Positions 24,927 to 58,000 of a stretch of 64,000 nucleotides of DNA are shown here, in pieces (position 1 is the stretch's first letter; each line of letters begins with the position of its first letter). The stretch comes from Bugulina stolonifera (Eukaryota > Bryozoa > Gymnolaemata > Cheilostomatida > Bugulidae). The position numbers were made by a program, and so were the translations under genes. The stretch lies in assembly GCA_935421135.1 (NCBI GenBank), contig OW285190.1, positions 9,496,501-9,560,500 on the forward strand. Reading direction: 5' to 3'. Under the pieces are notes generated by a model that searched no databases, was not told the DNA's origin, and saw only the letters and a list, made by a program, of their open reading frames with translations.

Positions 24927-27900
24927 TCAGCCATTAAACTGGACCATCACCAGGTAGTAAGTCACCATAACACTCACAATCTGCAGCAGAATAAATATAC
25001 TGCAATGAAAATCATGATCAGCAATTTTAGCAGTTAATTGACTGGTTGAATGAATAACTGACTGACCAATCGATTGATTAAATGATTGATTTATTGATTG
25101 ATTGATCGAACGATCAATTAATCAATCAATCAATCATTCGATCGACTGGTCAGTCGGTCAGTCAATTAATCAACCAGCTAACCAATCGATTAATTAACCA
25201 AACGATTGATAGATAAATCAACTTACAGATATAATATACTACAAAAATTGCTGATCATGGTTCTCATTGATTGATCGATTGATTTATTGAGTGATTATTT
25301 AGTGTTTAGAGCGGTTCATCTGTTATCCAGTTGATTGATTGACTTGTTGAGTGATTGGTTAGATGTTTATCGATCAAAGAGTTTGCTCTCAACACTCAAG
25401 ACTCAAGAGGCCGTACATTTTAATTATGCGAGGCTTGCTCCTTTAGATATGCAATTTACAGGTAGCTGTGGAACAGCATCACCACTTTGTTAGTACATCT
25501 GCAATGCAGCTAAACATTATAGGAATCTTGATTCATGTTGTTGTAGCATTGTACTAATTGTAAACAAGACTTGTTTAAAATGTTTACCGTCAAACCAAGG
25601 TCCTTATTGATGATCATCAGACCGGCCATTGTAACACTTTCAGGGTTTCTTGTCTTGCTAATGAACATCTGAATCTGTAATACAAATTTATTGTAATTTT
25701 CTCTGCACCAATTGAAACCAATGTGAGACACACAGGCACATATTATACAAACATTAATAATTAAAATTTACTCTACTGACTTTTCAGTGAATGGAAATAA
25801 TTTTGTTTGTCAGTACTTGAAGTATAACAAGACCACACTCAACATTGACTCATTTGCACATAACATTATTGACAGAATCAATTTGTGTACGGCCTATAAA
25901 ACATCAGTGATTTGCAGAACATGTTAGTGCTGCAACAATTGTATTATGTTACCCACTTCTACCCTTTTATTCTATGTATTGGTGCTTTACTGCAGTAGCT
26001 GTAATAGTTGCAATACCTGATGACTTTGATGAACTGTAACCTCGGGATATTCATCAGCGACGTTAAGTATATCCTCATAGGCAGCACCCGACTGCAATAA
26101 AAATAATTAAGATAATTATACATAACATTGGTTACTACGACAAGTGATGAGCTAGCTAGAGTATGTTCTACATGTACGTGCATGTGGAAAACAAGAAAGT
26201 CAAGAACGAGAGTAGAGCACCAACTTGAAAACTAATTTCGCTTTTCAATTTAAATAAATTGAGCGCATGACAGGAAAGTCTAAACAATAGGTGGGTGTCC
26301 ATGCAGCCATTAACATATGACTACAAAAAAAGTTTTTGTCGACAAATGCAGAATATGAGATTGCACCACTAACTCTTTTATCCTCTGATGATGTTACTTG
26401 AACAAGTAACGAAATATTAGGTAATAAATCTATATAAAAATAAAATTGTGTCTCGTACTACTATTCATAATTAAAATTTTATCCCAAACCAACATTTTTC
26501 ACAATATGAGATGGATTAGCAAACCAAAGGAGAACAGATGCTTTACCTCAGCCTCGAGTTTTTGTGAGAAGAATATAAACAGAAACAAATTTGCAGCATA
26601 AGTGCTTAACCAGAATGTGAGAGTGAAGTGTTCTAGTGGATGGCGAGGTTCATCTCTCGCTAGAGCCATCATGTATAACGAGATGAGCAACCCAACCACA
26701 ATGTTTGAAAACGTATTCCCTAAATAGAAATTAAAGAGACCGTCGACTTTTTGTATGAGCTGGCAGAGCTTCAGGTGGACTGATCTATACTCTTTCACGT
26801 TTAATAGTATCTTGTTTGCATCTTCCTTGATTTGCTGCTTGAGATGTTGATTGAAGTCCACCAACATCATCCACACTGTGCAACAAGTGCTAACAAACAG
26901 TGCCGGGTGGTACATCCATTGTATATTCGTCAACAGCGGTACACTATAAGAGACACATTGTATGAAAATTGAATAACCAGTTGGAAAAGTGTAATTTGGC
27001 AGCAAGCCTGAACCAAATATGGGATCCATTATATTATTGGTCGATAAGTCCCAGATCTTTATCCCCATGTTTACCAGGCCCATTATCGCTGTGGTGACCC
27101 ATATTGCAGTTTGATACTTCCTTTCCTTCTCCGGATTTCCTCCGACTCCTAGTCTTCTCATTTCATCCGTGATATCTTTCATAGCATCATAGAACCGGTG
27201 GATACTCTCTTCTTTGTGGTTAACATAGAAGAAGATACAATTGCTGAGTGTTTGCGTAAAGTGCCAGTGTAACCCTGATATTGGGAGGAGAAGGTCGATG
27301 ACTGTAGGTGTAGTAGTTGACAAGAAGGTGATGAAAATTCCAAATGCTGTTAAATAGAAAGTAAGTGCATTTGTTATATTTCTTCAATTATGTAGTTACA
27401 TGTACATGTAGATGCAAAAACTTTAAATTCTTACATAATGTGTGTCACGTTGACTGTGATGGCTGCACCACTGCTTGCTGCTGCCAATTCTCCACAGTTT
27501 ATTAATTACTGGCGTGTGTAATTACCTGTTTCAAGTTGTTACTAGTAATTTAATACCTAACTATACAAATAGATGAAATCTAAATCATAGTTCAGTGATT
27601 GGTTGCAAACTGACAGCGGTATATTTCTCTTACAACTACATGTACCAGTGTATGTTATGTGCAGTAGATGAGAGAACAATGTTATGGCTATCTCACAACA
27701 TAATGACTTTTTCTTCAGGGCTTCCGAAGCTAAATTTGTCGTTTAACACAAGATTTACTTTCTCATGTACTACACTGACCTGTTATTACCATAACTACAG
27801 GAAGTATACAGCAGATAAGCTGATACACTGTGGAGATGACAGTAAGAGTTCTTCTCTCATTTTTCCCAGAATGCAGTCCAACCACAACCAGTAGCACTCT

Positions 27901-29511: not shown

Positions 29512-31348
29512 TTACATGTAGTTCTCCCCAACGTCTATCAGCTCTCTACCAGGTAAAATGTCAAAAAATATCTCCTTACTAGCAGCATTAACAGCGTAGC
29601 AAATGTTTGCATACTGTGTAGACCTGGTCTTCTCTCTTAGTATTCCAGCTACATCTGTAAGCAAGGTAATCAGTTCAACTTTTGATGAAGACTGGAAACT
29701 GGAAGCAGGAGTTTCAGGGTCTTCATTGAATTGCCGGATATCATCCATATTTTCTGTCGCCGATACCCTACTTTCTTGACGTGGTACTGCTGATGACAAA
29801 TCAGTAAGGTGACTTACCAGCATCTCAAATAACTTTCCTTGTTTGGATCTGCAATACATGTGTAGCAGGTTCGAACAATTGGGTGCTATTGGAAATGCTT
29901 ACAAGATTTTAGATGATACAATGGTAGAATTAATAGTCAACATAATTATGTCTGCTGTGTAGGTTTCTTTGCGACCCGCAAGTTTACTTCAGCCATATTT
30001 TAATCACTTGCCCAAGTAATATATTGAAAGTCATATACATGTAGCTGTAGTGTGAGAAAACGTACAACTTTGGGGACTTGGAGCTCGAGGCTAGTTACCC
30101 TTTTGTCTGCGACCAATTAGCCAATCAAAATATTTCAATAGCAACTTTATTCTACATATTCAAGCAGTTCTAAAGTGTGGGTGTGTGTATAATTTTATGC
30201 AAACCTGATAGTATCAGGCTGATATTGTTATGTTCCTGGATTATTATACACACAGACTATCTTACTTGCTATCAGGTAGAGTAGAGAACATGATATAACA
30301 GTCAACTGGAACTTCTAAGCAAGGAAATGGATATTCCCATTCTTCAGCCTTTATATTTCCTGGAAGGGCCAGCCTTACTGGTTGTAGGTTCTTACCAACC
30401 TCACTTTCCAACCATGGAAATTCGGGGCTAGATTCAAAGCTGTGCGGCGCTCTGTTATACTGTGCCCGAATTTCTCCCCGACAGAATGATAGGAATACCA
30501 GCTACAATATATTATGTTGAAGATACAGAGTCATGTCATACTAACATTGGGTATAAACAGCAGCTTAATTTCTGCTGTACATTGCTGTATTTAGTGTGAC
30601 AATGTCGAGAAACTCTTGTTTTAGGCATTCGAAGCTTGTCTTATATAATTACATGTATGTTTACATTATTTGATAAAATTTTACTATTATTAATCCTTTT
30701 AGCCAATTTCAAAACTTTTGGAAGCTTACTGACCAAACGTCTACTCAATGTGTTTATATACTCACTTTTGGTATTCCAATGACATTACCAGTATTTAGGG
30801 CACTGATAACCTCTTGCACCGAACATTCTGTTTTGTTCATTCCAGATATCGTTCGATTACCATGTGAAAAGATGGCAAGCGCGACTATCGATCCATGGCC
30901 GTCTGATTGAGCAAACTCAGTTATCGCATTCTTTATACCTTCACCAGTCAAATTTGATTTTACTTGGACCTGGCAGAATGCAAGTTCGTTTATTATTAAA
31001 AATGCTGAAAATTTTCAAAATGCAAACAATTGTTAAACCAAAAGCAGAAATCTATAAAATAACCTTTTGAGCCCCTACCTGTAAGCCAAGTAGAGTGCCA
31101 AGCACCATCTGGGCATTCCTCAAGGTTTTATCACGAGACTCTGCCGTTAGCAGGTCCTTACTGTTCATTCCTTCTTTGAAGCCCAATTGGTTACATACTA
31201 TAAGTGCTTTTCCTCTTTGTTTCCCAGCTATGACCAGTGGAATTGAAGTTGTCAACTCAGGTCTTGAAGAATTCTTGTCCTCACGTTCACTGATGTTCAA
31301 AGCTTTTTTTTCTCTTTGGTATTTTTTGTTGAATGTAGAATTTATGCT
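29512..31348 (-). CDS. Ankyrin-caspase gene, 3' part: caspase domain (split by a transposon)
   Basis: Exons in transcript order: 31342-31079 (3' remainder of a split exon; the TSD at 31343-31348 adjoins it), 30969-30766, 30501-30266, 29848-29512. The first reads GKALIVCNQLGF, the opening strand of a caspase p20 subunit. The next contains VALAIFSHGN with the catalytic His. The third has LVFLSFCRGE, the counterpart of the QACRG active site with the catalytic Cys, followed by the p10-like YIMFSTLPDSK. The final exon (KLFEMLVSHL...) gives the end of the small subunit and a Ser/Glu-rich tail, ending ENYM. Both catalytic residues are present, so the domain should be able to act as a cysteine protease if expressed. 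Upstream exons continue at 40804-43886 beyond the inserted element. As assembled, the caspase part has no promoter or start of its own, and a TAG lies in frame in the adjacent TIR. Confidence 0.88.
31343..31348 (+). repeat. Target-site duplication, left copy
   Basis: TATGCT immediately precedes the left TIR and equals 40804-40809 immediately after the right TIR. On the minus strand it reads AGCATA, two codons of the interrupted caspase gene. Confidence 0.9.
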
Positions 31349-32574
31349 AGTAGTATAGTCAGTGCACTTCTAGACAGACACGCACTCATTGACCCCTGTT
31401 TTCAACCAATCACAAGCCGGTATTTCCGATTTCAACCAATCACAGAAGAGCACAAAAATTTTGCACACGACCTTGCCAAGGTCACCCCAAAATCCCCCCT
31501 TCTGATTGGTCGAAAAGACATTTGCACACTTGACCCCGAACCCGGCCACGACCCCTTCCCTTCCTCCTTCCCACCCTCCTCCCCTCCCCCTCCCCCACCT
31601 CCCACTCCTCCCTCCTCCCCGCCACCGCCCTCGTCCCGTCCGCACCACCGCCGTCGCCGCCGCCGCCACCACCGCCCTCACCACCGCCACCGCCGCCGCC
31701 ACCACCACCGCCCTCACCACCGTCGCCGCCACCGCCGCCACCGCCACCACCGCCACCACCACCACCGCCGCCACCACCACCACCGCCACCACCGCCGCCG
31801 CCGCCACCACCACCACCACCGCCGCCGCCGCCGCCATCACCGTCATCACCGCCACCCCTCCTCCACCGCCGCCCACCCTCCCCCCGCAACCCCCACTCAC
31901 CCGAACGACCAATCGTTTGAGGCGGTCAAGCCGCGTCCGCCCACGTTGCGTGCGGCGCCGACCGTACACGTGGAGGCGACGCCGGTGCCCCGTATCCACC
32001 GGGCCAAGCGACTAGGCAGCGGCCCGCCGCTTCTCCCGAGCCCTCCACTCGAAAAGCTTGTGATCTAAACGAGCGAATTCGGCTGCGCTTCGCCTATAAC
32101 TCTCGTTAGCGATAAGAAGAAGTACTACGGAAGGCTTGGTTTATGATGTGCATCGCATTGTTAATAAAGAAATGTGTAAAGTCTTGGCTATAAATACACT
32201 GATGGGAAGAAGGGTTGGTTCTATGATATACATTGTATTGACAATAAAGAAACGTGTGCATGTGTTAAGTCAGCATATATAATACATTAAATAAACTTTC
32301 CGCAATGGTGACAATAGAATGAATAAAAGATTGTGTACACGTGTTAAAACACAATTGAAAGAATAAAAGACACATATTTAAAAGAGTATGTCATATCTGT
32401 TATTAGCAAGAAAGTCTGTGTGCATGTGTTAAGACAGTGTATATTATACATTAGATAAACTTTTCACAATAGTAGCAATAGAATAAATAAAAGGTTGTGT
32501 GCATGTGTTAAGTCAGCATTATGTAATATATTAAATAAACTTCACAATAGTAGCAATAGAATAAATAAAAGAGG
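31349..32574 (+). repeat. Left terminal inverted repeat
   Basis: The outer part carries three CCAAT-type boxes (AACCAATCAC twice, CTGATTGG once). It is followed by a GC-rich pyrimidine/CCGCCA-repeat stretch (31560-31870), a CpG-rich segment (31900-32080), and AATAAA-rich imperfect tandem repeats of about 75-80 bp reaching to within 15 bp of the IkB-like stop codon. It is nearly identical to the right arm: over the 245-codon open frame I see only two amino-acid-level differences. Inner portions diverge slightly more. Confidence 0.93.
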
Positions 32575-32588
32575 GGTTTAGGTACTTA

Positions 32589-34035
32589 TTACTCATCTTC
32601 ATCAGAAGTCGTAGGAGCTATAATGTTTACGACTTCGGTCTCAGCATACTCTAATTGATATGCTCCAGCTCCAAACTCTTGACACAGTCTTACCTACAAG
32701 ATGATTTTAGTTTTTTACTCAGACGAATATCACTCAAGGTGGACAAAGCAAGAAATCTATACTTCTTTATGTTGTTGGTCCCTTACCATATCTGCTGATT
32801 TGTAGAGGTGAGCTAGTTGTTGAGGAGTTTCACTTTTGTAGTTACGAACTTCAGAATCAGCTCCCAATCTTAGACATGTATGTAGACATTCGTAGTCTTC
32901 ATTCTCTATGGCAATGTGAGATGGGGCATATCCATCTCCCATTCGCTATAATATCAAACAAGAGAATAGAATTAAACTCCCCATCTAACTTATCAATTCG
33001 ATCTACTCTACTTTTATTCCACTGTAATGTATTCACTTACCCTCATATCTAAGTCAGCCCGAGTATTTTTTTTTAGTACTTTTAGTGCCTCTCTATGCTT
33101 GCTGCTATGCGCTGTTTCAACAATGAGGTGGACTACACTCCTTCCATCATGATTGTAGCTCTGTACATTGTCTTGGGGAAGTGATTTGTAAGGAACTCTG
33201 AAGTATGGATGCTTTACTTCTACTCTGGTCAAACTTGTGGTTAGAGCATGAATAACCTTAGCTCTACCCAGACGTGCAGCAATGTGAAGGGGGGTGTCAC
33301 CTTCCAAATAAACATTAGCAATATAGATAAGTATCGAATTGTTACAAGTTTTGCAATACTATATTTTTTAACAAGCAATGCATGCAAACATTGGTGCTAT
33401 AAAACACTAACCCCAAGCATCGGCTATTGCTCCATCCGCTCCCCTTGTGATGATGAGGCGAATTAGTGAATCCGAACAATAAGACTGTACAGTTAGGTGA
33501 AGTAATGTCTGCCGATTCGCATTCTTTGTATTCAGTTGTTTGTGACTCCTCGCAACAAATACCGCGAGTGCAATGGCTCTCTCATCTCTATCTCGGGCTG
33601 CTTCTAGTACCTCACTACATCATTTAGCATGATATTTGTTTTTCACATAGTTGAGAGGTAGTTATATGGGAAATTTGTCTATCATATTTTATTTTGATCA
33701 TAAAAGACAATACGAAACAAAAAAAAAAAAAAATAGTTGGAAGTATGTATAACTTACAACTCTTCATCCTTTCCATCTTGCTCCCAAAAGATAGAACGAA
33801 TTTCTTCTAGTAACTGTGTGCTAAGCTTATTACGAATATCGGTTAAAGGATCCCATTTCTGCCAGTCTAGAGGTAAGCTTTTTTGGAGAAAGAGCTCAGA
33901 CACCCCCTCAAATAAGTCTTTATTCTCATACTTGCTTTGTTCTGTACATCTTTCCACTGTTACCTTCATCAGCTCTTGGTTTATAGGAGTCATTAGCTTG
34001 TTGCTATACTCGCTTGATCCATACCCACTTTCCAT
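32589..34035 (-). CDS. IkB-like ankyrin-repeat protein, cargo of the transposon
   Basis: Five exons in transcript order: 34035-33758, 33614-33412, 33300-33041, 32945-32787, 32693-32589. Splice phases all match, giving 334 aa, close to the usual IkB length. The N-terminus MESGYGSSEYS resembles the DSGxxS phosphodegron through which IKK and beta-TrCP destroy IkB proteins, with Glu in place of Asp. Ankyrin repeats follow: NRQTLLHLTVQ, WGDTPLHIAARLGRA, HDGRSVVHLIVE, GYAPSHIAIENEDYECLHTC and SETPQQLAHLYKSADM. The tail is acidic (TTSDEDE), as in many IkB proteins. The expected role is cytoplasmic retention or inhibition of NF-kB/Rel factors; this is inferred from architecture. The gene is divergently transcribed from the 526-aa gene and retains four introns, so it was captured as genomic DNA rather than by retroposition. 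An A15 tract lies in intron 1. Confidence 0.85.
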
Positions 34036-34120
34036 GTTATTTGTGTGCTAACCCTCTTTAATTTCTATTAAGAACAGACTGGAGCTAGAAAGAGTTAACT
34101 AAAATACTGTTTCCACCTCT

Positions 34121-34161
34121 CTTTATATAGTGAATAAAAAGATACAAATAAAGCTGATTGG
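34121..34161 (-). promoter_or_regulatory. Core promoter of the IkB-like cargo gene
   Basis: On the minus strand a CCAAT box (TTAGCCAATCAGC, core 34157-34161) is followed 26 bp downstream by the TATA box CTATATAAAG (34121-34130). The IkB-like ATG is 85 bp further on at 34035. Spacing suits transcription starting near 34095. Confidence 0.7.
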
Positions 34162-34184
34162 CTAACAGCATATACATTGGAGCG

Positions 34185-35115
34185 CATTGGAAACACATCA
34201 GAGTGCATCGAATCACATCGGGAAAGATCAAAAACACATAGGGAAACATCGAAACACATCGGGAAAGGTCGAAAACACATCGGGGGAGGTCGAAAACACA
34301 TCGGGACACATCGAATCACATCGGGGGAGGTCGAAAACACATCGGGACACATCGAATCACATCGGGAGAGGTCGAAAACACATCGGGACACATCAAATCA
34401 CATCGGGGGAGGTCGAAAACACATCGAATCCCATCGGGGGAGGTCGAAATCACATCGGGGGAGGTCGAAAACACATCGGGGGTGGTCGAAAACACATCGG
34501 GACACATCGAATCACATCGGGGGAGGTCGAAAACACATTGAATCACATCGGGGGAGGTCGGAAACACATCGAATCACATCGGGGGAGGTCGAAAACACAT
34601 CGAATCACATCGGGGGAGGTCGAAAACACATCGAATCACATCGGGGGAGGTCGAAAACACATCGAATCACATCGAGGGAGGTCGAAAACACATCGAGACA
34701 CATCGAATCACATCGGGAGAGGTCGAAAACACATTGAATCACATCGGGGGAGGTCAAAAACACATCGGGTTACATCGGGTTACATCGGGGAAGGTCGAAA
34801 ACACATCGAGACACATCGAATCACATCGGGGGAGGTCGAAAACACATCGGGACACATCGAATCACATCGGGGGAGGTCAAAAACACATCGGGTTACATCG
34901 GGTTACATCGGGGAAGGTCGAAAACACATCGGGACACATCGAATCACATCGGGGGAGGTCGAAAACACATCGAGACACATCGAATCACATCGGGGGAGGT
35001 CGAAAACACACCGGGGGAGGTCGAAAACACATCGGGTTACATCGGGTTACATCGGGTTACATCGGGTTACATCGGGTTACATCGGGTTACATCGGGTTAC
35101 ATCGAATCACATCGG
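34185..35115 (+). repeat. Intergenic tandem array built on a 21-bp unit and the heptamer cacatcg
   Basis: Repeats of cacatcgggggaggtcgaaa (plus one a, 21 bp) alternate with cacatcgggacacatcgaat blocks. Near the right end are runs of the 10-bp unit acatcgggtt. Several long open frames arise because the units keep phase, including a 312-codon frame at 34187-35125, but codon content is that of the repeat and the array sits between two divergent promoters. It is probably a regulatory or structural array (protein-binding sites or replication/packaging sequence of the element). I recognise no known binding-site consensus in it. Confidence 0.9.
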
Positions 35116-35152
35116 GATGCAATAAATCAGACTAAAAAAAGGCACATCACTT

Positions 35153-35179
35153 CTGATTGGACAGAGATTTCCATAAAAG
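35153..35179 (+). promoter_or_regulatory. Core promoter of the plus-strand cargo gene
   Basis: An inverted CCAAT box CTGATTGG (35153-35160) is followed by a TATA-like CATAAAAG (35172-35179), about 110 bp upstream of the first ATG at 35288. The same octamer CTGATTGG occurs in the left-hand promoter (34154-34161) and in the TIRs, so the element reuses it. Confidence 0.5.
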
Positions 35180-35287
35180 CAAGTGTGAGAGAGGATTTTT
35201 ATCATTACCACTCAACCACCTAGTAAAGACTTGCAACTCTGTGGATATTTACTAATTTCTCTGAATAAACATCACTCAACAATTAAT

Positions 35288-38200
35288 ATGGTGAGTAAAC
35301 TTATTTTAATATGTATTTTAGTATGAATTTACTCATTTGAGTTAACATTGGGACTAATTCTATTTTAGTAGTGATATAATACTCCCTTGGTATGACTAGA
35401 GCTTAGAAACTTTGTAAGCTTATGTATTAAACTGTTTTGATTCTCAACATGAGAGCAAGTATGTAGAGATCTGATCTGTCTATACTACAATTTGTGTGAC
35501 CGGAGCTTAGAAGCTTTATATGTGGTGAGATTTTTTTCAATATGAGTAGTTATACCACTAGTAGTGTAATAAGTATCAAAACAGTTTATTACCACTTGTA
35601 CTGGCTATACTAGTACATCCTAGCTATTTTAATATGTATTTTAATATGAACTTACTCATTTGAGTTAACATTGGGGCTAATTATATTTTAGTAGTGGTAT
35701 AATTCTCCTTTGGTATGTCCAGGGCTTAGAAACTTTGTAAGCTTATATATTAAACTGTTTTGATTCTCAACATGAAAGCATGTGTGTAGAGATCTGCTCT
35801 GTCTATACTACAATTAGTGTGACCATAGCTTAGAAACTTTATAAGTGGTGAGATTTATTTTCAATATGAGTAGTTATACCACTAGTAGGGTAATAAGTAT
35901 CAAAACAGTTTATTACCACTTGTACTGACTATACTTGTACATCCTAGCAAAGAAGTATATTATCAAGTGTAGCCTATACTCTACATCCAAGACTATACTG
36001 TACTAAAGTGGCCTATCACAATACTTGGGGTGGACTTGCTGCTAAAAAGATTAACTGGATAATTCTAATGAATAGGTCTGCACTAAAGTGATTTATTACA
36101 CTACTTGGGATGAACTTGTTGCTAAAAAGATTAACTGAATAATTCTAATAAATAGGTCTACACCAAAGTGATTTATTACACTACTTAGGATGAACTTGAA
36201 GCTAAAAAGACTAACTGATTAATTCTAATAAATAGATCTGCACTAACACAAGAGTAATTTATCTCTCTGTTTGGGAGGAGCTTACCATCAGAAAGACTCA
36301 ATTGGTTGAAAAACACATAAAAAGTAAGGGGTGGTATTTTTGGTTTTTTTTCTGTCTTATACTGATTATTCACTTCAAAATTAATTCTTGCTAACACATG
36401 TTCTGTTTATCTGTTCTTGTTTCTATTCCCCAGTGACTATGGTGAGTTGGTGGTTTTATCCACACAGTTAAGGCTTTAGTATATATTATTACTTGTTATT
36501 TAACTTGCCTATGCTATTCATTCTAAAAGTAGTTGTTATCAGTATTCTTATTCTCTTGCTCAATAACTATAGGGATTAGTATTTTTGTATACTTGACTTG
36601 TACACTACCACTATGCTCATGTTTCCTATATATTTTTATTCATTCTTATTTTCTTTGTTTAGTAACTATGTTGCATTAGTAGTTCCGTTTACTTGACTTA
36701 TGCTTTGGTATATGTTTATTACTCTACATATACTTACAGGCTTCTACATCTAAATATCAAAGAAAGAAATATATAAGAAAAATTAAAACATCAAAAAAAG
36801 GTACGAAGTATATGATTACGTACGACTCGGAAGACAGAAGACGAATCTCGAGGAAAAGAATCCCATCTCCAGAAATGGTTAGTCTATTATCTTATTTGTT
36901 CACACATGCATTACACCTTCAATCCACTATGGTGTTGGGTTTCTAAGATGTCAAAGGAGATTACTGACATTTCTGCAGAAGTACATGTTAGTTACACATA
37001 ATGATGATGTACTTTTTTATACTATAAGCCTCTTACCATGTCTAGAATGTCAAAAGAGACTACTTCCTTTTTAAAACCAGATGTTAATTAGTCATAGTAT
37101 GATTTTCTCTAATTCTATAAGTCTCTTACCATGTCTAAGATGTTAAAGATTAGTGATATTTTTATTATAAGTATTGCACTTTCTTTCTTATGTATTATTT
37201 TTATCAATAAGACACTTTTTTTCTTTTCTTATGTGAAAAAATATAACATAAATTACAACTGGTTTTCTTATGTTGATGATGTATTTCTCTTTATGTGAGT
37301 AAATAGACAGGCTTTAGTAGACTTGCTTAGTACTTAGAGTGCCAGTTTTTTCATCAAATTCTTCAAAAACCATATATTACAAATAACTATGTTAATGTAG
37401 TTTGTTAATTAGTCACTGCACATTTTATTTACATTATAGAATGAAAAAGAAACAGAACTAGGGGAAGAAGAGATTGCTTTATTTGAACAATGTGGGGGAG
37501 TAGATGGCTTCGAGATAGGTAAGAATGATTTAGTATCTATTTGTATATTTAGAATCTTTTTTTTTCTGATTTACAAGTAAGTCATATGTTCTCTCTCACT
37601 TATTCTTGTTATTTTCTTTCTTTTTTAGGACTCAGAGCAAAGTCGATATGTAAGGGGGGTCTAAGATTCTATGTCTTTGTTAGTGATGAGACAAAAAGAA
37701 GACTGGAGATGTCACTAACAAAGCCATTTGAATCGGATGACCCCTGTTTTTTATGCAATAAGAATGTTGGGCACCGACGAGGTGTCCACATTCAACAGCA
37801 TTTTTTGCTCCGAATCTGTTTTTGCTATCACATAACAGTAGATGATGAGGGGATGAATAGACACTACAACTTTCCATCTAATCATCATATTGATGGAAAG
37901 CCCTGTCACCGACACATCTCATTCAACACACGCTTTCTAACAGATATCTATTCACTAAAAAAGACCATATCCTTTTTGCAAAGGGTCACTGGTCACTCTC
38001 CACCTTCCAAAATACTCATCCCCGCATACACTCCAACAACTGTTGGTGGGGTAGTATACCCTCCCTTCTTTAAGGGGATGTCTACTACTCCATTCTCTTT
38101 AAAGTCTGGGGTGTGCTCTTCACAATTTCCTCTCCCTTCTCACCATCATTTTGATTCAGATGCTTCTTCCATCAGTAACTCTCTTACTAATGGAGACATT

Positions 38201-38989
38201 ACCATCTCTACTTCTTCTCTTACAACTACTACTATTACTACTACTCCTTCTACTACTTCTTTTCTTCCACTCTTTTCTTCACATTCACCCTCTCATTCTC
38301 CTGAAAGATCTGTAAAGTCTGGGGTGTGCTCTTCACAATTTCCTCTCCCTTCTCACCATCATTTTGATTCAGATGCTTCTTCCATCAGTAACTCTCTTAC
38401 TAATGGAGACATTACCACCTCTACTTCTTCTCTTACAACTACTACTATTACTACTACCATTACTACCACTCCTTCTACTGCTTCTTTTCCCCCACTCTTT
38501 TCTTCACATTCACCCTCTCATTCTCCTGAAAGATTTGATGATACAGTTACCACTGTTTCGATACCTACTTCTACTCCCACCTCTTCACCTGCTCCACTCT
38601 TTTTCTTAGATTCACCCTCTTTTTCTCTTGGAAGGTCTAATAATACAATTACTAGTCTTTCAATACCTACTTTTATTACTACTTCTACTACTACCACTTC
38701 TTCCTTTTCTTTAGCTTCACCCTCTCTTTCTTTTGGAAGAGAGCTACTTAGCTCGCAATCTCCTTCTTGTTCGTCTGAACTCAATCTTAATACCCCCACC
38801 ACTATTACCCCCATAGAAGAAGAGACTGTCAGTGAACTAGTTGATCGAAGCAGACTCCCCCCATCTTTTTTCTCTGGAGCAGTTGAGTATTACCGCTCTG
38901 CCATTTTTCATCTCAAGAAGAATGGGTATCACAGAGAGGTAATAGCACAAGCTGAAGCTTACCTTCGAGTCAGTGAAGAAAAGCTCTAA
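35288..38989 (+). CDS. Unrecognised basic/Ser-Thr-rich protein, cargo of the transposon
   Basis: Proposed exons: 35288-35290 (ATG only), 36740-36877, 37440-37518, 37629-38989. Phases match and give 526 aa. The ATG at 36439-36441 also sits directly before a GT donor and could be an alternative start; including that mini-exon after the first ATG would give an immediate stop. The N-terminus is very basic (KYQRKKYIRKIKTSKK), suggesting nuclear localisation. The middle has Cys/His clusters (DDPCFLCNKNVGHRRGVHI, then CFCYH, then HHIDGKPCHRH) that could bind zinc. Residues from about 38100 on are Ser/Thr/Pro-rich, with a perfect-looking 71-codon internal duplication (38101-38313 and from 38314). The C-terminus is short and helical (GAVEYYRSAIFHLKKNGYH). 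I do not recognise a family. It could be an element-specific DNA-binding protein. Confidence 0.75.
35307..35945 (+). repeat. Two tandem ~320-bp repeats in the first intron of the plus-strand cargo gene
   Basis: The block starting atgtattttagtatgaattt (about 35307-35627) is repeated from about 35628 to 35945 with scattered substitutions. It includes the shared gagttaacattgggg and ctagtacatcctagc landmarks. Confidence 0.85.
36003..36250 (+). repeat. ~80-bp tandem repeat, three units plus a partial
   Basis: The units read ctaaagtg-ttattacactact, then gatgaacttg, then gctaaaaagattaactg, then aattctaataaataggtct. They lie in the same intron as the preceding duplication and give way to a more diverged fourth copy. 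Confidence 0.85.
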
Positions 38990-39119
38990 TCATCTTTTCT
39001 TTTTTCTCCCACTCTCTTTCTCCCACTCTCTCTCTCTGTAGTGTCTCATTCCCTCTGCATTTACTTTTATGTGATATCAAATCAGTGAGGATTTTTTTAA
39101 ATTATTTTTTAAATTATTA

Positions 39120-39543
39120 TATAATGGTATTCTAACACTTATACACATCCTTTTATACATTCTATTGCTACTTTTGTAAAAAGTTTATCTAATGTATTAT
39201 ATGTGCTGACTTAACACATGCACACAGCTGTCTCTTGCTATAATAGCTATGACATACTCCTTTACATATGTGTCTTTTATTCTTTCAATTGTGTTTAAAT
39301 CATATTATAATGATATTTCAACATGTGTACACAATCTCTATTTATTCTATTGCTACTATTGTGAAAAGTTTATTTAATGTATTATATATGCTGCCCTTAA
39401 CACATGTACACAGACTTTTCTTGCTAACAATAGCTATGACATACTCCTTTACATATGTAGCTTTTTTATTCATTCTATTGCTAGTGTTGTAAAAAGTGTA
39501 TTTAATGTATTACATAATGCTGACTTAACACATACACTCAATC
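39120..39543. repeat. AATAAA-rich ~75-80-bp tandem repeats inside the right TIR
   Basis: Repeated blocks of ttattctattgctactattg, then aaaagtttatttaatgtatta, then tgacttaacacatgcacac. The same units form the inner part of both TIRs. The right side carries extra copies, so the TIR length boundary on this side is approximate. Confidence 0.8.
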
Positions 39544-40803
39544 TTTTATTTATTCTATTGCTACTATTGTAAAAAGTTTATTTAATATATTACATAATGC
39601 TGACTTAACACATGCACACAACCTTTTATTTATTCTATTGCTACTATTGTGAAAAGTTTATCTAATGTATAATATACACTGTCTTAACACATGCACACAG
39701 ACTTCCTTGCTAATAACAGATATGACATACTCTTTTAAATATGTGTCTTTTATTCTTTCAATTGTGTTTTAACACGTGTACACAATCTTTTATTCATTCT
39801 ATTGTCACCATTGTGAAAAGTTTATTTAATGCATTATATATGCTGACTTAACACATGCACACGGTTCTTTGTTGTCAATACAATGTATATTATAGAAACA
39901 ACCCTTCTTCCCATCAGTATATTTATAGCCGAGACTTTACACATTTCTTTATTAACAATGCAATGCACATCATAAACCAAGCCTTCCGTAGTACTTCTTC
40001 TTATCGCTGAAACCAAGCCTTCCGTAGTACTTCTTCTTATCGCTAACGAGAGTTATAGGCGAAGCGCAGCCGAATTCGCTCGTTTAGATCACAAGCTTTT
40101 CGAGTGGAGGGCTCGGGAGAAGCGGCGGGCCGCTGCCTAGTCGCTTGGCCCGGTGGATACGGGGCACCGGCGTCGCCTCCACGTGTACGGTCGGCGCCGC
40201 ACGCAACGTGGGCGGACGCGGCTTGACCGCCTCAAACGATTGGTCGTTCGGGTGAGTGGGGGTTGCGGGGGGAGGGTGGGCGGCGGTGGAGGAGGGGTGG
40301 CGGTGATGACGGTGATGGCGGCGGCGGCGGCGGTGGTGGTGGTGGTGGCGGCGGCGGCGGTGGTGGCGGTGGTGGTGGTGGCGGCGGTGGTGGTGGTGGC
40401 GGTGGTGGCGGTGGCGGCGGTGGCGGCGACGGTGGTGAGGGCGGTGGTGGTGGCGGCGGCGGCGGCGGTGGTGAGGGCGGTGGTGGCGGCGGCGGCGACG
40501 GCGGTGGTGCGGACGGGACGAGGGCGGTGGCGGGGAGGAGGGAGGAGTGGGAGGTGGGGGAGGGGGAGGGGAGGAGGGTGGGAAGGAGGAAGGGAAGGGG
40601 TCGTGGCCGGGTTCGGGGTCAAGTGTGCAAATGTTTTTTCGACCAATCAGAAGGGGGGATTTTGGGGTGACCTTGGCAAGGTCGTGTGCAAAATTTTTGT
40701 GCTCTTCTGTGATTGGTTGAAATCGGAAATACCGGCTTGTGATTGGTTGAAAACAGGGGTCAATGAGTGCGTGTCTGTCTAGAAGTGCACTGACTATACT
40801 ACT
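39544..40803 (-). repeat. Right terminal inverted repeat
   Basis: Inverted copy of 31349-32574. It differs by a tandem duplication of about 36 bp (gaaaccaagccttccgtagt..., 39973-40044), by one base turning GRKD into GRKN in the open frame, and by scattered changes at its inner end. The outer 16 bases are identical to the left end. Confidence 0.93.
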
Positions 40804-40809
40804 TATGCT
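40804..40809 (+). repeat. Target-site duplication, right copy
   Basis: TATGCT directly follows the right TIR and equals 31343-31348. Confidence 0.9.
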
Positions 40810-43800
40810 GACCCTCTGCACATCAGCGTCACATCTTAAGGCGTTTATGAAATCTTCGATAGAATCATAGCCATTTATGTCTATCTTTTGTTTTCTAAAA
40901 TACAGTACTTGATCAAATTATACATGCACCATGTTTACATTACATGTGCAATAGGCTTGTAGATTTCACCAGTACTGTACTGTGAATATAAGAACTAGAT
41001 AATTCAATTATTTGTATTTTTGATGTGGTAAGCTATAGGCAAAGAAATACATGATTATTATAAAATGACAATCAAATTTTCAATAAAAACTGAAAACATA
41101 GATGTGAGAATATTCAATTATTCACAGGAAGTTCATGTGCATGAGTATAGGTAATCAGACTTTAAATTTATTTCTTTCGTTATGCCTTACGTTTTATAAT
41201 GAGGCACCAGAAAATTCACTATAAGAATAAGAAAATCTGGACCTGGAACCACCAAGTTGAGATTGGTTGCATCTACCGAGCATTCCACAACAACTATCTA
41301 CAAAGAACAGCAGAATAACATCGCTTAGGATAAAGTTCATGTGCATTATTTTTAATAAGATAATATTGCAATCACAATACATAATATTGCAGGGGATTTC
41401 TCTATTCATTTATGTACTTATTTGTCTGTATCAGTCCATCTTTGATTCGTAGCTTTAATGCACATAGCAGGAAGTTATACCCCACCCTTAACGGGTTTTT
41501 CTTTTACCTGCTTATAACTAATGCAAACCATACAGAGATTTTCAGCTGCTCCCCCCCCCCCCCTGCTCTCCCATTCTCCATCTCTATTAAAAAGATATTG
41601 ATAGGATCAGGCTGAAGGTATCATAGGTATTTCTTTAATCATATTAACCTTTGGTTTCCCTTGATGCTCTACAGAGTCCATACCATTCAGCATGGCCTGA
41701 AGTTTCTCTTCCTTTGGTGCTGGTACTTCTTCTAGATCAATAAGGAAGTAGAGAGAATCTGGCTTGCTCCCTTCTCCCTCCTCCAAAGTCTGAATGAAAT
41801 GCAATGAATTTTAGTATACATGTGCTTGTTACCGATAAAACACCCCTTGCAGCATCATGGTAGCTTAGGTGTGGTGTTATTCCACACTGACGCTAATGGT
41901 GAATGAAAGATGTCAATTTGCATTTATTATCCAGCTGAAATGTTGAGCTGTAGGTTATTAGGATGTAACACACATTATAACTGCCTAACTATTTATCCTT
42001 GAATCAGCAAACCTCACCTGTGGAAATGCTGCAGCTGTAAACAGCATATGTGAAGTAGTGTAAGCTGAATCCAAGAGCGAGTATTCGTTTAGAGCATACT
42101 TGAGTACTTTGAGAATCTCTTCGTTATACTCGTAGTACCGATTTGGGTTCTCCAGCTGATCGCTCAAATCTGGTGATGCGAAATGTCCTTGACTGGCAAA
42201 AATCTTAGAGAAAGATTTGACTTGCGTCTCACACAGCACTCTCTGAATGTAAAAGTCTTCCAAAAACATACGCTGTTGCAAGATTGTTTCGCAATTTGTG
42301 TTCTGCATATTTTCTGATTTAATGACACGCCGTCGTTCATATAGCGAAAGCCGAAGCATGAAGTCTGCAAATACTTTGGCATCATATTTGGCGGCTACAT
42401 AGTGAAGCGGAGTGTTGTTGTATTTGTCAGGAAACATCATTTTAGCAGAATCTATATCTGGCAAGTAGTCAAGGAGAACATCATATAAGTCATCTAAGGA
42501 GAGTAAAAGGGAAGCAAGGTGGAGTATATTTTGACCAAAATTGTTTGTGTCTTGTAAAACAGCTTTCAAGTATTCTGAGCTAAACTTTTCGTCAATATTC
42601 TCCAGTAAACACGATAGAGACTCTGCTCTGCCACACCGAACCAAAGATAAGACAACATTTTCTCCATTAGCGTTTTTGACGAGCAACAGATTATGTAGTG
42701 ATTCAGAATCCATTGCTTCAATGAATGCTTCAACTATCTCTGCTGTACCTGCAGAGTGTATGGCTGTATCACCATCAGCGTCTTGTTTCAGCATCAGCTC
42801 ACAGTTTGGGAGAGGTATGCTACACAAATATTCCACGACAGCCGTTTTGCTGAATTGAGCCGCTGAGTGCAAAGCGGTGCACTGATTCCGTTTTACTGTC
42901 ATGAGAAACTCTCTTTGCCTTTCAAAATCTACACATTCAACCAGAATTTCTGCAATTTCTCCATTTTTTGCAAAATGCAGTGCAGTTGCACCTAAATTAT
43001 CCCTTACATGAACCAGCTCATTATTCTGTAGAGCTATACTACACAAATATTCTACGACATCCGTTTTTCCTAAATCAGCAGCTACATGCAACGCTGTACG
43101 ATGGTTAAAATCAACTGCCACTATTAAATCTCTCTGTTTTTCAGGCTCAACAGTCTCAACCAATAACTCAGCTATCTCTCTATTCTTGGCGTAATGTAGT
43201 GCAGTTCGATCAAAATAGTCCTTACGCTGAAGGACCAATTCTTCGTCAGGTACAGATAAAACATCACAAAGGTATTCGATAACTTCAGCATTGCCTAAGA
43301 TGGCTAAAGTATGAAATACAGTCCATTTGTTTTCATCTGCTGTCAAAATAAAGTTTCTCCTCGTAACCGGCTCAACCCACTCGACAAGTATCTCGGCAAT
43401 GTCTTTGCTATGAGCGTAATGTAACGCCGTTCTACCGTCATTGTCTCTCTGGAATAACAACTTGTCCTCGGGTATTTGTAGGGTCTTTATGTATGACATC
43501 ACATCGCTTCTACCATCACGTGAAGTCATATGCAGTATTGTACCGTGCTCTTCATCAACATCTAGTACGTAGCCTACTTGCTTAGATGAGTCCAGTGAGT
43601 CTACTATAACTTTCGCTGTCGCTCTGTCTTTAGCAACATGCAAAGCTGTTTTTCCCGCTTTGTCCTTTTTGAAAATTAATTCATGACCAACCTCATCAAT
43701 GTTACATAGATACCTCACCAAATCGGTTTTCCCTAAACTGGCGTTAACATGTAGAGCAGTGCGGTGGTTTTCATCAACAGCTAAAATAACATTTTTCCTC

Positions 43801-43886
43801 TCATCAGGGTCTATAGATTTTAAAAACTGTTCTGCTGCCTCTTTGGTCAATGCACTGTAAAGTGCTGAAGAATCATGTGCATTCAT
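40804..43886 (-). CDS. Ankyrin-caspase gene, 5' part: ankyrin repeats and linker (split by a transposon)
   Basis: Exons in transcript order: 43886-42018, 41789-41649, 41297-41191, 40894-40804 (5' part of the split exon). The first exon encodes about 13 ankyrin-type repeats of roughly 33-50 residues with landmarks such as HRTALHVAADLGKTDVVEYL, GKTALHVAKDRATAKVIV and NNTPLHYVAAKYDAKVFAD. Then follow an acidic segment (TLEEGEGSKPDS), a hydrophobic strand-rich segment (IVVVECSVDATNLNLVV) and DINGYDSIEDFINAL. Removing the element and one TSD gives a 355-nt exon that enters phase 2, leaves phase 0 and continues into the caspase exons; the whole prediction is 1082 aa, with insertion near residues 734-736. 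The ATG at 43886 follows a possible acceptor (catgcag|gtgat), so an untranslated or short upstream exon is possible. As assembled, the frame runs on into the TIR for about 240 codons. Confidence 0.87.
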
Positions 43887-45348
43887 ATCACCTGCATGTA
43901 TGTGTGTTTGGCTAAATGTTTGTCCTCTGATCAACCTTTAGTCACATTACAGACCTAAAAGTAAAGTGACAAGGCAAGTCTTACAATTCCTAAATTAAGA
44001 TGCAACAGCATAGTTGGTAAAAAGCATGTTGGTAACATGTTTTTCTAATTTTGGTGCATGTACGTCTATATCTGTAGCCGAATATAGGCCAGACATACAT
44101 GTATATAAGTAACAGACTAGAATTGTGTGAAGAACTGCAATGCATTATGGTAAGTCTTAAATATACTCTACCTACCAATGATGTAACTCTAATTTGTTAA
44201 TTTGTTTTCATTATCCTCCTGTTAGCTGCCGTGCAATCCGATTATCTTTAATGAAAACTTCACTAGTCTGATGATGCACAGAACACTGTATCACTCCCGA
44301 CTATTGGGAATAATGTGGAGCAAAACCACAAGTTTGTCTTTTGTAAAGAGTACACATGTTCGGAATTATGCACTTACCTGGTCGGTGGTGTTTCACTCTA
44401 TTAAGATAAGCATCTCTCCTAGTTTTAACTACTAACTCGGCACCAAAGCAGTTTCATTATAATCATTCATTCCATATGCTAATTATAACTGTACTGATGA
44501 TAGGGTAGTGCTAAATTCCAACATATCCATCTGATATAATGTAATCCAATCCTATATGAGCTTACTAACACATTGGCAATTGACCAATACTTTGCTTCCT
44601 TGTGCAAATAAGGTATCTAAACTACTGCTCAATATTTTTTATCAATTACCAACTGACGGCCAACTGACAACACTGACAACGGTATAATATTGCACTAATA
44701 TTATCAGCACTTACATTTACATGTAGGCTACATGACTCCCGCAGTAGATGTATAGGTCCAGCCCAAGTGCATAATTATACAGCACCTTCCATTCCATGTT
44801 CACTTACATGTATATAACTAGATTGATGAAAATTATAACCACCTTACAATCATGTCATCTGGCAGATTCTGTAAAACAGAGCAGATAGTTTTGCAAGCCA
44901 GCATGTAAGCTATAAATGGGACAACCAAACGGCTGGCATCCAAAATTATTTGGATTTATTACTCACCCAGTCCTATGGTAGTTGGCATCGATAAATTTAT
45001 TAATGGTTTCACATAAATGCATGGGTATGATATAGGCCTTTTATACATATCCTAACATGCAACTGTATTTTCTTCAAATATCACAAAAATAATTCACTTC
45101 AAAAACATTGTTGTTTCACCATGTCAATGCTGTCAACTGCAAAGCATTATGTACTTGTGTACTAACATGGTAGTTAAAAATTCAAATAGACTATACAGTT
45201 AGTAATTCAACCAAGTTAGTTGTAAGCCCTGCTACAGAGACAGGTGGATGATTTCCTCCAATCACACTGAGATTAATTAGCTATATTCTGTATCATCCAA
45301 TTAAAGCAGAGATAGTGAATGTGTCATGTCTTGCATCTAGCTCGAAAA
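43887..45348. other. Intergenic region between the ankyrin-caspase gene and the third UNC93A-like gene
   Basis: No coding frame with splice support was found. It should contain the 5' region of the ankyrin-caspase gene and the 3' UTR of the minus-strand UNC93A-like gene. Confidence 0.45.
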
Positions 45349-53517: not shown

Positions 53518-54181
53518 TGTAATGGTACGCACAGTCGTCTCCTACACCTGACACTCATTATTGTGTGCATATACATGTATATATCTGCTTGTAATTTACT
53601 ATATGTTATTGTATATACTTGTATGATTATTACTAAGTCTTTTAATGCCTTTTATACCCATGTACAGAGGCCCGACCTCTCAGAATCCATTGATATTCAT
53701 TTTGTACATGAATTGGACCATTATAAGCAACTTTTGTAGAACCCGACCTATTTTGGGTCGGCCGTCGGGCTTCCGGCGGCCATCTTGTTGCGCAACTTCC
53801 GGACGACCTTACGTCGTCTTTTCCCGACACTACGTCGGGCGGAAGTCCTTATACTATATAAAGGGCATTGTTTCACTGTTCATTGTCTCAGTCTTCACTT
53901 GGCTTTCAATAAAGACACATCTATACTTGATACAGAGACTTTCACTTCCTTTTGTCAGGTCATTCGCTTAGCGAACCGCCTACTAGGTCGGATCACTCTC
54001 TTTCAAAGTATAGTCTGAAGGTCAGACTTGGGACCAGATGGGTCGTCTCTGGTAGTTATTGGGCTACTGAGACCGCTCGATCTTTCATGTAATGCGAAGT
54101 CCTATTACCACTCATAGGCACTTCATTTCTGGGTCGGCAGTCGTCCAAGGACGACCGCACCAAATCACAGAAACCATTACA
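53518..54181 (+). mobile_element. Solo LTR, copy A (664 bp)
   Basis: Begins TGTAATGGTAC and ends ACCATTACA, an inverted 9-bp terminus starting TG and ending CA. It is flanked by the 4-bp direct repeat GTAT on both sides. It contains a TATA box (TATATAAA, 53855-53862) and a poly(A) signal AATAAA (53908-53913), i.e. U3-R-U5 organisation, plus GC-rich inverted repeats (ACCCGACCTATTTTGGGTCG region). No internal retroelement genes adjoin it. The superfamily cannot be assigned from the LTR alone; a 4-bp TSD suits several LTR classes. Confidence 0.85.
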
Positions 54182-55043: not shown

Positions 55044-58000
55044 ATGCTGACAGTAGGATCTTGTATGGTTTCCAACAAACCTGCAGTATTAATTGTATTA
55101 CTCATCCACATCCTACCTCTAGTTTCTAGTGAGCAGATTCAAGGTGGTGAGTACAAGCAGTATCATATATTGTTGAGTCGCAACATTATCAGAATTTTTT
55201 CCTCTCTAAAGTTCACACACTAGCAATCCTCAAGTAACATTAGTTCTGTACTTGCATATAGGTCTGCTGCCGTTCGAAACTGTGCCGTTGTTATAATCTG
55301 ATTTACCCTAATGTTATTCTGCAACATGAATTCACAACAACTCTTATCTGTACACTATACCCTTACACATTCAGTTGTTAGTGTTGACTATTATACATGT
55401 ACATGTACGTGTGCAAGCTCTACAACATACATTGTACATGTACATGGACGTACAAATCTAATTGTTTGCCATTGTAAATAATTCTTTTCGGTTTTGGAGT
55501 CCAGTCCAGTTTTGATGCACAGAAGAAGTGTGGTTTTTCTGCCAAAGACTCCAGGGACTACATGTATTTTTCTCCATTGTAAATTTGCTTCGTCCATTCG
55601 TTCATAAGGACTCCATGTACATGTAATATAAGCTCAACAAAAAGAAGCAGTTCCAATGTGGATTGGTCATTCTGTTGGGAAAATATAAGTTATGGTCTAC
55701 AAATAGATTACAACATGTACAAGATACACCTATATTTTACTCTATTGTAAATGTAATGTTGATGCAATGATATATATACTGTATATGTATGTAATTTGAA
55801 GCGAAACAGCTCTGTTCCCAGCACATTGATCAATTATAGCAACAATATTTCCATTATTACCCCTAATAATTTCATCAATAAATTATGCACTCCTGTGTTG
55901 ATCTAAATATAGATGTGGTGCATATTATACACCTTGTATGCCATTTAAATATGTACAGTATGTATGAGAAAAGAAAACATAAACTTTAGGCTCATTTACA
56001 ACCTAGTAATAGAGTATAAATAGTGTACATATTTAACTGGTGACTCACTATTACAGATGAGTTGGCACTGTACCAAGACATATGTGACAGCATCTACTGG
56101 AGAAGTGTGAACACTTTACCAGCCTATATAAGATCACCCCATTATCCTTCTAACTATCCTGATAATAAAAGATGTGTTTGGTCTAAGGAGGTGACCCAAT
56201 ATGACAACATCATGGTAAGTAATGAAAAGCATACAGGTCAGATACACATGTACACTCTATTTACATGTAAAATACACATTTCATTTTGTGTTTAGCTCAT
56301 TCACTTGATTAAGGTCTTAGGTACATGAGAGGCCATGAGCTCTAGAACGGGGGGGGGTCCGAAGGCCGAAAAATAACAATCGGCCTCTCCTGTTGCCAAG
56401 CCTTAATGGGTGTGTACGTATATGAGCCTCAACAAATTATGCGTTTCCTGTGTCAGTTAGTATTTGTAGAGAGTTTCTCTGTATGGAGCAAGCAGGATTT
56501 GTAGTAAGCATAATTGTTTAATATATAATACCAACTACCTGCCACAACATGTATGTTATAACTATGTTTGTGACTAGACAGTAGACACTATTGTTAGGTG
56601 TACAATCAACTTATACTTGCAAAAATAGTTGGCAGCATGATTTTGCAAATCTATTTGCTTTTGTAATTTCCTCCTAACCTGAATTTGGGGAGTAAATGTA
56701 CATGGATTTCCCTGTTGACACTATGGTGACACTTCTATACATAACATGTATGATACAGAGCCTGAAATAATATTGTAATGGTTTCTGTGATTTGGTGCGG
56801 TCGTCCTTGGACGACTATCGACCCAGAAATGAAGTGCCTATGAGTGGTAATAGGACTTCGCATTACATGAAAGATCGAGCGGTCTCAGTAGCCCAAAAAC
56901 TACCAAAGACGACCCATCTGGTCCCAAGTCTGACCTTCAGACTATACGTTGAAAGAGAGTGATCCGACCTAGTAGGCGGTTCGCTAAGCGAATGACCTGA
57001 CAAAAGGAAGTGAAAGTCTCTGTATCAAGTATAGATGTGTCTTTATTGAAAGCCAAGTGAAGACTGAGACAATGAACAGTAAAACAGTGCCCTTTATATA
57101 GTATAAGGACTTCCGGCCGACGTGACGTCGAGAAAAGACGACATGTGGTCGTCCGGAAGTTGCGCAACAAGATGGCCGCCGGAAGCCCGACGGCCGACCC
57201 AAAATAGGTCGGGTTCTACAAAAGTTGCTTATAATGGTCCAATTCATGTACAAAATGAATATCAATGGATTCTGAGAGGTCGGGCCTCTGTACATGGGTA
57301 TAAAAGGCATTAAAAGACTTAGTTATAATCATGTAACTATATACAATAATATAGGAGAACAATACATGAATAAGTAGCGAGTATAAACACATGGAGACAC
57401 GTATATAGATAGTAATTAATGGTTTAACATGCATTGCAATAAGTACACGAACAGCTAATTATGAGAGTGTGAGTGTCAGATGAGTAGTGCTGTAACAACT
57501 ACTAGGCACTTGGAGTGCGGTGGAGCTTCGTCCAGTAGTTGGAGTCGTATACAAATGTCCTGTACCATTACAATATTTCTGTGGTAATTTACACAGCCTG
57601 CTATAATTAAACTAATAATGGGTTTGTTTCAGATGACAATCAAGGACATTGATCTCGGACTAAGAGGAACGAATTGTATCTATGACTACTTATCAATCAC
57701 TAGTCAGGGTGATCACAGGCGACGATGTAGGCCAGACGATGCAGGGACATTTCCCATTAGACCAATAGAAAGCCGAGGGAGGAAATATTTGGCTGTGACT
57801 TTCCGGTCTGATGGGATAGATAATCACAGAGGATTTGCTCTAATAATTGATGGGACTGAAAGAGCGCCGACAACTACTACACCAGTTACTACAACTACCC
57901 CAACTACTACTACAATTACTACTACAACAACCACTACCCCAACTACTACAACCACTCCAATTACTACTACAACTACCCCAACTACTACTACAACTACCCC

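Follow-up and report, generated by a model that had tools for sequence, protein, structure and literature searches.

A class of Maverick/Polinton-type elements carrying a captured ankyrin gene shares its ends with a class encoding an integrase and a predicted capsid protein in the bryozoan Bugulina stolonifera

The stretch of DNA analyzed here (the window) comprises 64,000 nucleotides of the genome of Bugulina stolonifera (contig OW285190.1, positions 9,496,501 to 9,560,500 of the forward strand) and contains a 9,455-bp mobile element inserted in a caspase exon. This element belongs to one of two gene-bearing classes of Maverick/Polinton-type DNA that have the same terminal inverted repeat (TIR). 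Class A, of which the window element is a member, contains a captured ankyrin gene and a second gene, referred to here as gene X, and class B encodes an integrase, a packaging-type ATPase, and a predicted capsid protein. We consider it probable that class A is a payload element that is integrated in trans by class B and that carries genes under selection. If this is true, cooperating classes can arise by splitting within Mavericks, and selection can maintain an immune regulator captured from the host in one of them. With approximately 270 similar copies in its genome, a single animal would allow tests of how these elements insert, capture genes, depend on helpers, and interfere with immunity.

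RESULTS AND DISCUSSION

An intact element interrupts a caspase exon

The element spans positions 31349 to 40803 and is bounded on both sides by a perfect TATGCT target-site duplication (TSD; positions 31343 to 31348 on the left and 40804 to 40809 on the right). The interrupted exon lies on the minus strand, with its 5' part at 40810 to 40894 and its 3' part, including one TSD, at 31079 to 31348. Joining these pieces (85 + 270 = 355 nt) produces one stop-free reading frame flanked by an AG acceptor and a GT donor. The rejoined exon by itself had no Pfam match; together with the next exon, it matched Peptidase_C14 (caspase) with an E value of 3.3e-9, and this match begins about 45 residues downstream of the insertion point. 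An earlier note on this DNA had described an intact long-TIR element within a caspase exon, with a perfect 6-bp TSD and a 355-nt exon free of stops after removal of the element, and the ends, the joined open frame, and the Peptidase_C14 match bear out that description. Within the assembly, the 270-bp left part of this exon occurs only once, and the insertion provides a direct presence/absence marker. Just upstream of the caspase exons, a 650-aa ankyrin-repeat open reading frame (ORF) on the minus strand (41985 to 43937; Ank_2, E value of 1.3e-41) may be part of the caspase host gene or of a neighboring gene.

The left TIR (31349 to 32572, plus strand) begins with the tip AGTAGTATAG, followed by a GC-rich triplet tract, and aligns with the right TIR at 39542 to 40803 on the minus strand; the arms measure 1.22 kb and 1.26 kb, compared with the value of about 1.2 kb given earlier. 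The outer 759 bp of the two arms differ at 2 sites (positions 169 and 341), beyond which the right arm contains an additional 36-bp tandem unit (repeat at 39974 to 40044) followed by approximately 430 bp more at about 97% match. Other class A copies also have the extra unit in one of their arms, so that the larger arm difference was inherited and predates this copy. Near-identity of the arms is for this reason a poor clock and was rejected as a measure of recency, which leaves unproven the very recent insertion that the earlier note had read in part from it. The first 212 bp of the window TIR show a single differing site in 27 of 33 other arms, drawn from class A, class B, and repeat-only copies. 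At position 169, G is found in the left arm of the window element only, and 31 of the 33 other arms have A (the remaining 2 were not comparable without gaps); this left-arm change may be younger.

The ends are present in hundreds of copies

The exact 35-bp tip had 270 forward and 276 reverse matches (546 in total, or approximately 270 copies) in the 235-Mb genome of 27 contigs, supplying the many other copies of the terminus for which a search had been proposed. The reversed-pattern control had 0 matches, indicating that the tip matches are not due to chance. Both ends were read for 17 elements (the window element and 16 others), and every one of them has a perfect 6-bp TSD, with 15 different sequences in all. 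All 17 have a pyrimidine-purine step at the center of the TSD, as a single integrase would give, and the same step occurs in 88 of the 100 flanking hexamers listed from the G-first sample (104 in all). These observations bear on the explanation that the inverted arms are an assembly artifact. Long GC-rich arms are difficult to assemble; however, hundreds of tips in near-equal numbers on the two strands, the consistency and variety of the TSDs, and a host frame that is open once the flanks are joined make an artifact extremely improbable. The idea that every copy represents its own insertion was rejected. Three class B pairs on contig C1 (at 14200014, 14298523, and 14359530) share one TSD, and their flanks differ at 0 to 2 of 301 to 323 positions, which identifies them as segmental duplicates of one insertion.

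Three interior classes share one TIR

The common ends, together with a CATCGG-rich array, enclose three kinds of interior: class A, class B, and a repeat-only class. Among 48 complete pairs typed, which were drawn from 100 tip places on C1, C2, and the start of C3 after four unpartnered tips had been dropped, 22 were class A, 24 were class B, and 2 were repeat-only. The class A pairs were assigned by gene X and the ankyrin gene, and the class B pairs were assigned by capsid matches (14 pairs), element DNA (6 pairs), a 451-aa gene (1 pair), or 601-bp pieces (3 pairs). Two of the pairs typed by 601-bp pieces are duplicates, giving at most 22 independent class B insertions and a collapsed count of 22 A to 22 B among 46. 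When matches across the genome were merged, class A accounted for at least 158 loci, some of them degraded, and class B for at least 118. Within the G-first sample, covering 100 of 104 ends, at least 38 ends had class A matches, at least 39 had class B matches, at least 1 had both, and the remaining 22 had none listed; 5 of these 22 are known, 4 being class B and 1 repeat-only.

The TIR is common to classes A and B over up to approximately 700 bp. The array of the window element is a 41-bp tandem repeat rich in CATCGG (34129 to 35105, plus strand), a motif that forms arrays in class B and repeat-only copies as well. Its density ranges from 3.5 to 22 per kb in the array-holding loci of all three classes, in comparison with 0.11 per kb in the window flanks and 0 to 0.31 per kb in pieces of one element encoding a PolB polymerase. 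The two repeat-only pairs, L007 and L029, consist largely of CATCGG-type repeats, and L007 has the perfect TSD TTCAGG. Nested insertions lengthen some copies, including hAT-type transposase pieces within class B copy L017 and, within class A copy L015, a 924-aa ORF that resembles a retrotransposon on visual inspection.

Class B encodes an integrase and a predicted capsid protein

Examination of the ORFs in the window element revealed no rve integrase, PolB, capsid, packaging ATPase, or protease, in agreement with the earlier statement that core transposition genes are absent. Class B, in contrast, encodes proteins with rve integrase (E value of 2e-11), Chromo (1.1e-6), and Pox_A32 (A32-type packaging ATPase; 1.4e-6) domains. 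On the basis of its predicted structure (mean pLDDT of 78), a 461-aa class B protein is a double-jelly-roll capsid protein; its model matches such proteins from PBCV-1, iridovirus, Sputnik, and mavirus, with TM-scores of approximately 0.5 to 0.6 and a best E value of 3.3e-16. The top match by E value in the viral library was a 25% identical protein listed under bracovirus, with a TM-score of only 0.34. The capsid alignment consisted of the query and 24 of 40 homologues, and all 92 of the capsid matches listed were without stop. Integrase genes from four class B copies and capsid genes from three were 99.2 to 99.7% identical. The penton- and protease-like genes of class B had no family matches and are named from sequence appearance only; the best PDB match of the candidate protease had an E value of 0.4. 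A search of IMG/VR produced no confirmed relatives of the class B capsid or integrase, and the phage collection contained no relative of the capsid. The autonomous partner anticipated by the earlier note is found in part, since class B has the same TIR, an integrase, and a capsid protein but is itself without a polymerase.

PolB was not seen as an ORF in class A or class B, and none of the 48 typed pairs represented a PolB-bearing third class with the same long TIR. A search of the genome with PF03175 returned 11 matches (on C1, C2, C4, C7, and C10), and the 6 on C1 and C2, the contigs covered by the comparison, all lie outside exact-tip pairs. Three of the matches lie within Polintons that have TIRs and are bounded by perfect 6-bp TSDs. 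One of these, at C1:4278024-4293072, has a 513-bp TIR, the TSD TAATAT, and a tip that is found as one pair in the genome at up to 2 mismatches; its integrase and those of class B are 25% identical. The other two have 818-bp TIRs and are located on C2 near 16.26 Mb (TSD ATAGCT) and on C1 near 12.83 Mb (TSD GATTAC).

The ankyrin gene was captured from a host-type gene

The ankyrin gene of the window element lies on the minus strand. Exon 1 (33758 to 34035) begins with MESGYGSSE, has splice sites that align to those of a host paralogue, and has at least 150 genome matches, the host gene included. It is followed by exon 2 (33412 to 33614), exon 3 (33041 to 33300), which matches Pfam Ank, exon 4 (32787 to 32945), which has a weak, sub-cut-off Ank match, and exon 5 with the stop codon (32589 to 32693), in which the tail diverges from the host gene after AETE. 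The host paralogue, at L027 on C5, has the same intron positions, with identities of 49, 75, 75, and 80% for exons 1 to 4. The best PDB matches of exon 2 were Bcl-3 (E value of 3.3e-6) and MIB1 (4.5e-6), and the host gene matched Bcl-3 over 171 residues (4.1e-15). In the host protein, a long N-terminal region contains DSGFES, which fits DSGxxS, the degron motif of IkB proteins; the element version begins further in.

Over exons 2 to 4, the element and host genes differ at a synonymous proportion (pS) of 0.67 and a nonsynonymous proportion (pN) of 0.14. Synonymous sites are thus far diverged and nonsynonymous sites much less so, which points to an old capture of a gene that has been kept. Comparison of the window with L015 gave 10 synonymous and 12 nonsynonymous changes on approximately 200 and 724 sites, respectively, and 144 of the 150 exon 1 matches listed, the host gene among them, were without stop. 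What the element carries is a divergent copy of an IkB/Bcl-3-like host gene that has kept the introns but not the N-terminal region, and the pattern of substitution suggests that this copy is under purifying selection. The source of the capture could also have been a related species.

Gene X is conserved among copies

The last exon of gene X (37629 to 38989, plus strand) encodes a conserved Cys/His-rich domain followed by a Ser/Thr-rich tail and has at least 150 matches in the genome. ORFs with splice-like borders, judged by eye, mark probable exons on the same strand at 37440 to 37518 and at 36741 to 36877, the latter encoding a basic segment; exons upstream of it are uncertain. Gene X had no Pfam or PHROGs match, protein homologue searches outside this genome found none, and its PDB matches were at chance level. 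Between the window and L014, the domain has 15 synonymous and 11 nonsynonymous changes on 105 and 363 sites, for a pN/pS ratio of 0.21, and 141 of the 150 domain matches listed were without stop. Judged from these substitutions, gene X is under purifying selection. A relic at L028:1296-1760, which is 46 to 48% identical and contains stops, indicates that the gene X lineage is old in the genome.

The substitution patterns of the two genes bear directly on whether class A is simply a nonautonomous element parasitizing class B, with a host gene that was acquired by accident and serves no role. Gene capture is common among transposons, and the gene-less L007 moved with the same TIR, as such a parasite would. 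This account is nevertheless unlikely given the low pN/pS ratio of gene X, the excess of synonymous over nonsynonymous divergence between the ankyrin gene and its host counterpart, and the large majority of listed matches to both genes that are free of stops.

Mobilization in trans and a possible division of labor

The arrangement that we favor, in which class B integrates a class A payload, would operate as follows. Class A supplies the cis parts only, namely, the TIRs with tip AGTAGTATAG, the 6-bp TSDs, and the CATCGG array, and the rve-chromodomain integrase of class B would insert it in trans. Class B particles, built from the predicted capsid protein and the packaging-type ATPase, perhaps also package class A in trans, and polymerase activity would be provided either by the host or by the separate PolB Polintons. 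The ankyrin gene was captured as genomic DNA, introns included, from the host or a relative long before the present copies spread. Because the copy is without the host N-terminal region, the likeliest role of its product would be to weaken the host response by binding NF-kB during movement of the element, by analogy with the vankyrins of polydnaviruses.

A different account holds that classes A and B are components of one divided (multipartite) virus-like genome, with both needed and transmitted together. The common TIR and CATCGG array, the complementary contents, the near-equal numbers (22 and 22 of 46 with duplicates collapsed), and the largely intact genes of both classes are consistent with such a genome; however, PolB is in neither class, repeat-only copies exist, there is no sign that B needs A, gene X belongs to no known family, and equal numbers have other possible origins. 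We regard this account as possible but doubtful. Similarly tentative is a more specific proposal of a divided animal virus-like transposon, in which class B would provide the integrase and particles, class A would be an equal-number payload bearing an IkB copy that damps NF-kB together with a second gene that is required, and the polymerase would be borrowed from the same-tip PolB Polintons. If true, the divided element would represent a polydnavirus-like division of labor that arose within Mavericks.

Several observations weigh against integration of a selected class A payload by class B. No transposition was observed, and class B, being without PolB, is an incomplete helper. The three PolB Polintons share just the outermost 9 to 10 bp with the window element (AGTAGTATA or AGTAGTATAG), with no longer match between their TIRs and its own, although a polymerase could possibly act in trans via this shared tip. 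Some copies are segmental duplicates rather than insertions (one group compared), and the repeat-only copies indicate that an element can do without gene X and the ankyrin gene in cis. Exon 3 of the ankyrin gene is little constrained relative to L015 (1 synonymous and 3 nonsynonymous changes, including 8 codons before the exon). Membership in the IkB family is weak: MIB1 nearly equals Bcl-3 as a match to exon 2, Bcl-3 is just rank 56 among the ankyrin-protein matches to the host gene, and there is no NF-kB inhibitor among the best 60 of 245 matches to that gene. The ankyrin matches are unspecific, and the gene is labeled IkB/Bcl-3-like rather than a proven IkB. Finally, the ESGYGSSE retained in exon 1 of the element might act as a degron.

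Other features of the window

Closely similar ORFs on opposite strands at 53627 to 53971 and 56984 to 57322 (GRPSGFRRPSCCATSGRP), also found in L014 and L037, represent another interspersed repeat. A 422-aa ORF on the plus strand (57588 to 58856) encodes a long, mucin-like TTTTTTP repeat, and the minus strand at 26499 to 27383 has a weak match to the 7tm_7 chemosensory-receptor family (E value of 1.2e-5, slightly below the curated cut-off). No Rfam match was found in the window.

Comparison with known systems

A literature search covering titles and the starts of abstracts, with most subscription papers outside its scope, found no Polintons with IkB-like genes and no element classes sharing one TIR, which is weak evidence of novelty. 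The Maverick/Polinton group (adintoviruses) provides the closest anatomical parallel. Vertebrate Mavericks, in the part of the source consulted, have an (AGT)2//(ACT)2 end motif, a 6-bp TSD, and TIRs of 46 to 1,447 bp (PMC8097293). The AGTAGT...ACTACT ends, 6-bp TSD, and approximately 1.2-kb TIR of the window element fit this description, and the Polinton/Maverick-like assignment suggested in the earlier note was to that extent right. Class B resembles this group further in its rve integrase, packaging-type ATPase, and predicted jelly-roll capsid protein. The bryozoan elements differ in that no core gene was found in class A, class B is without PolB, and the content is split over classes with one TIR.

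Capsid-bearing elements without a detectable DNA polymerase have precedent among endogenous viruses of protists, as summarized in the available portion of the report (PMC10120064); unlike those viruses as described there, the capsid elements of B. stolonifera have a payload partner class with the same TIR. The vankyrins of polydnaviruses are likewise IkB-like ankyrin genes and, according to the section of the source available, are without the regulatory N- and C-terminal parts (PMC3757122). The system described here involves no parasitoid, its capsid elements are mobile in their own right and share their ends with the payload, and inhibition of NF-kB is proposed by analogy. Host-derived cargo genes on virus-like elements are also known from the nematode Mavericks of Widen et al. 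(PMC10680173). In the excerpted account of that system, the Mavericks acquired cargo, whereas in B. stolonifera the cargo is carried by a class in which no core gene was found and which shares its ends with a class that has core genes.

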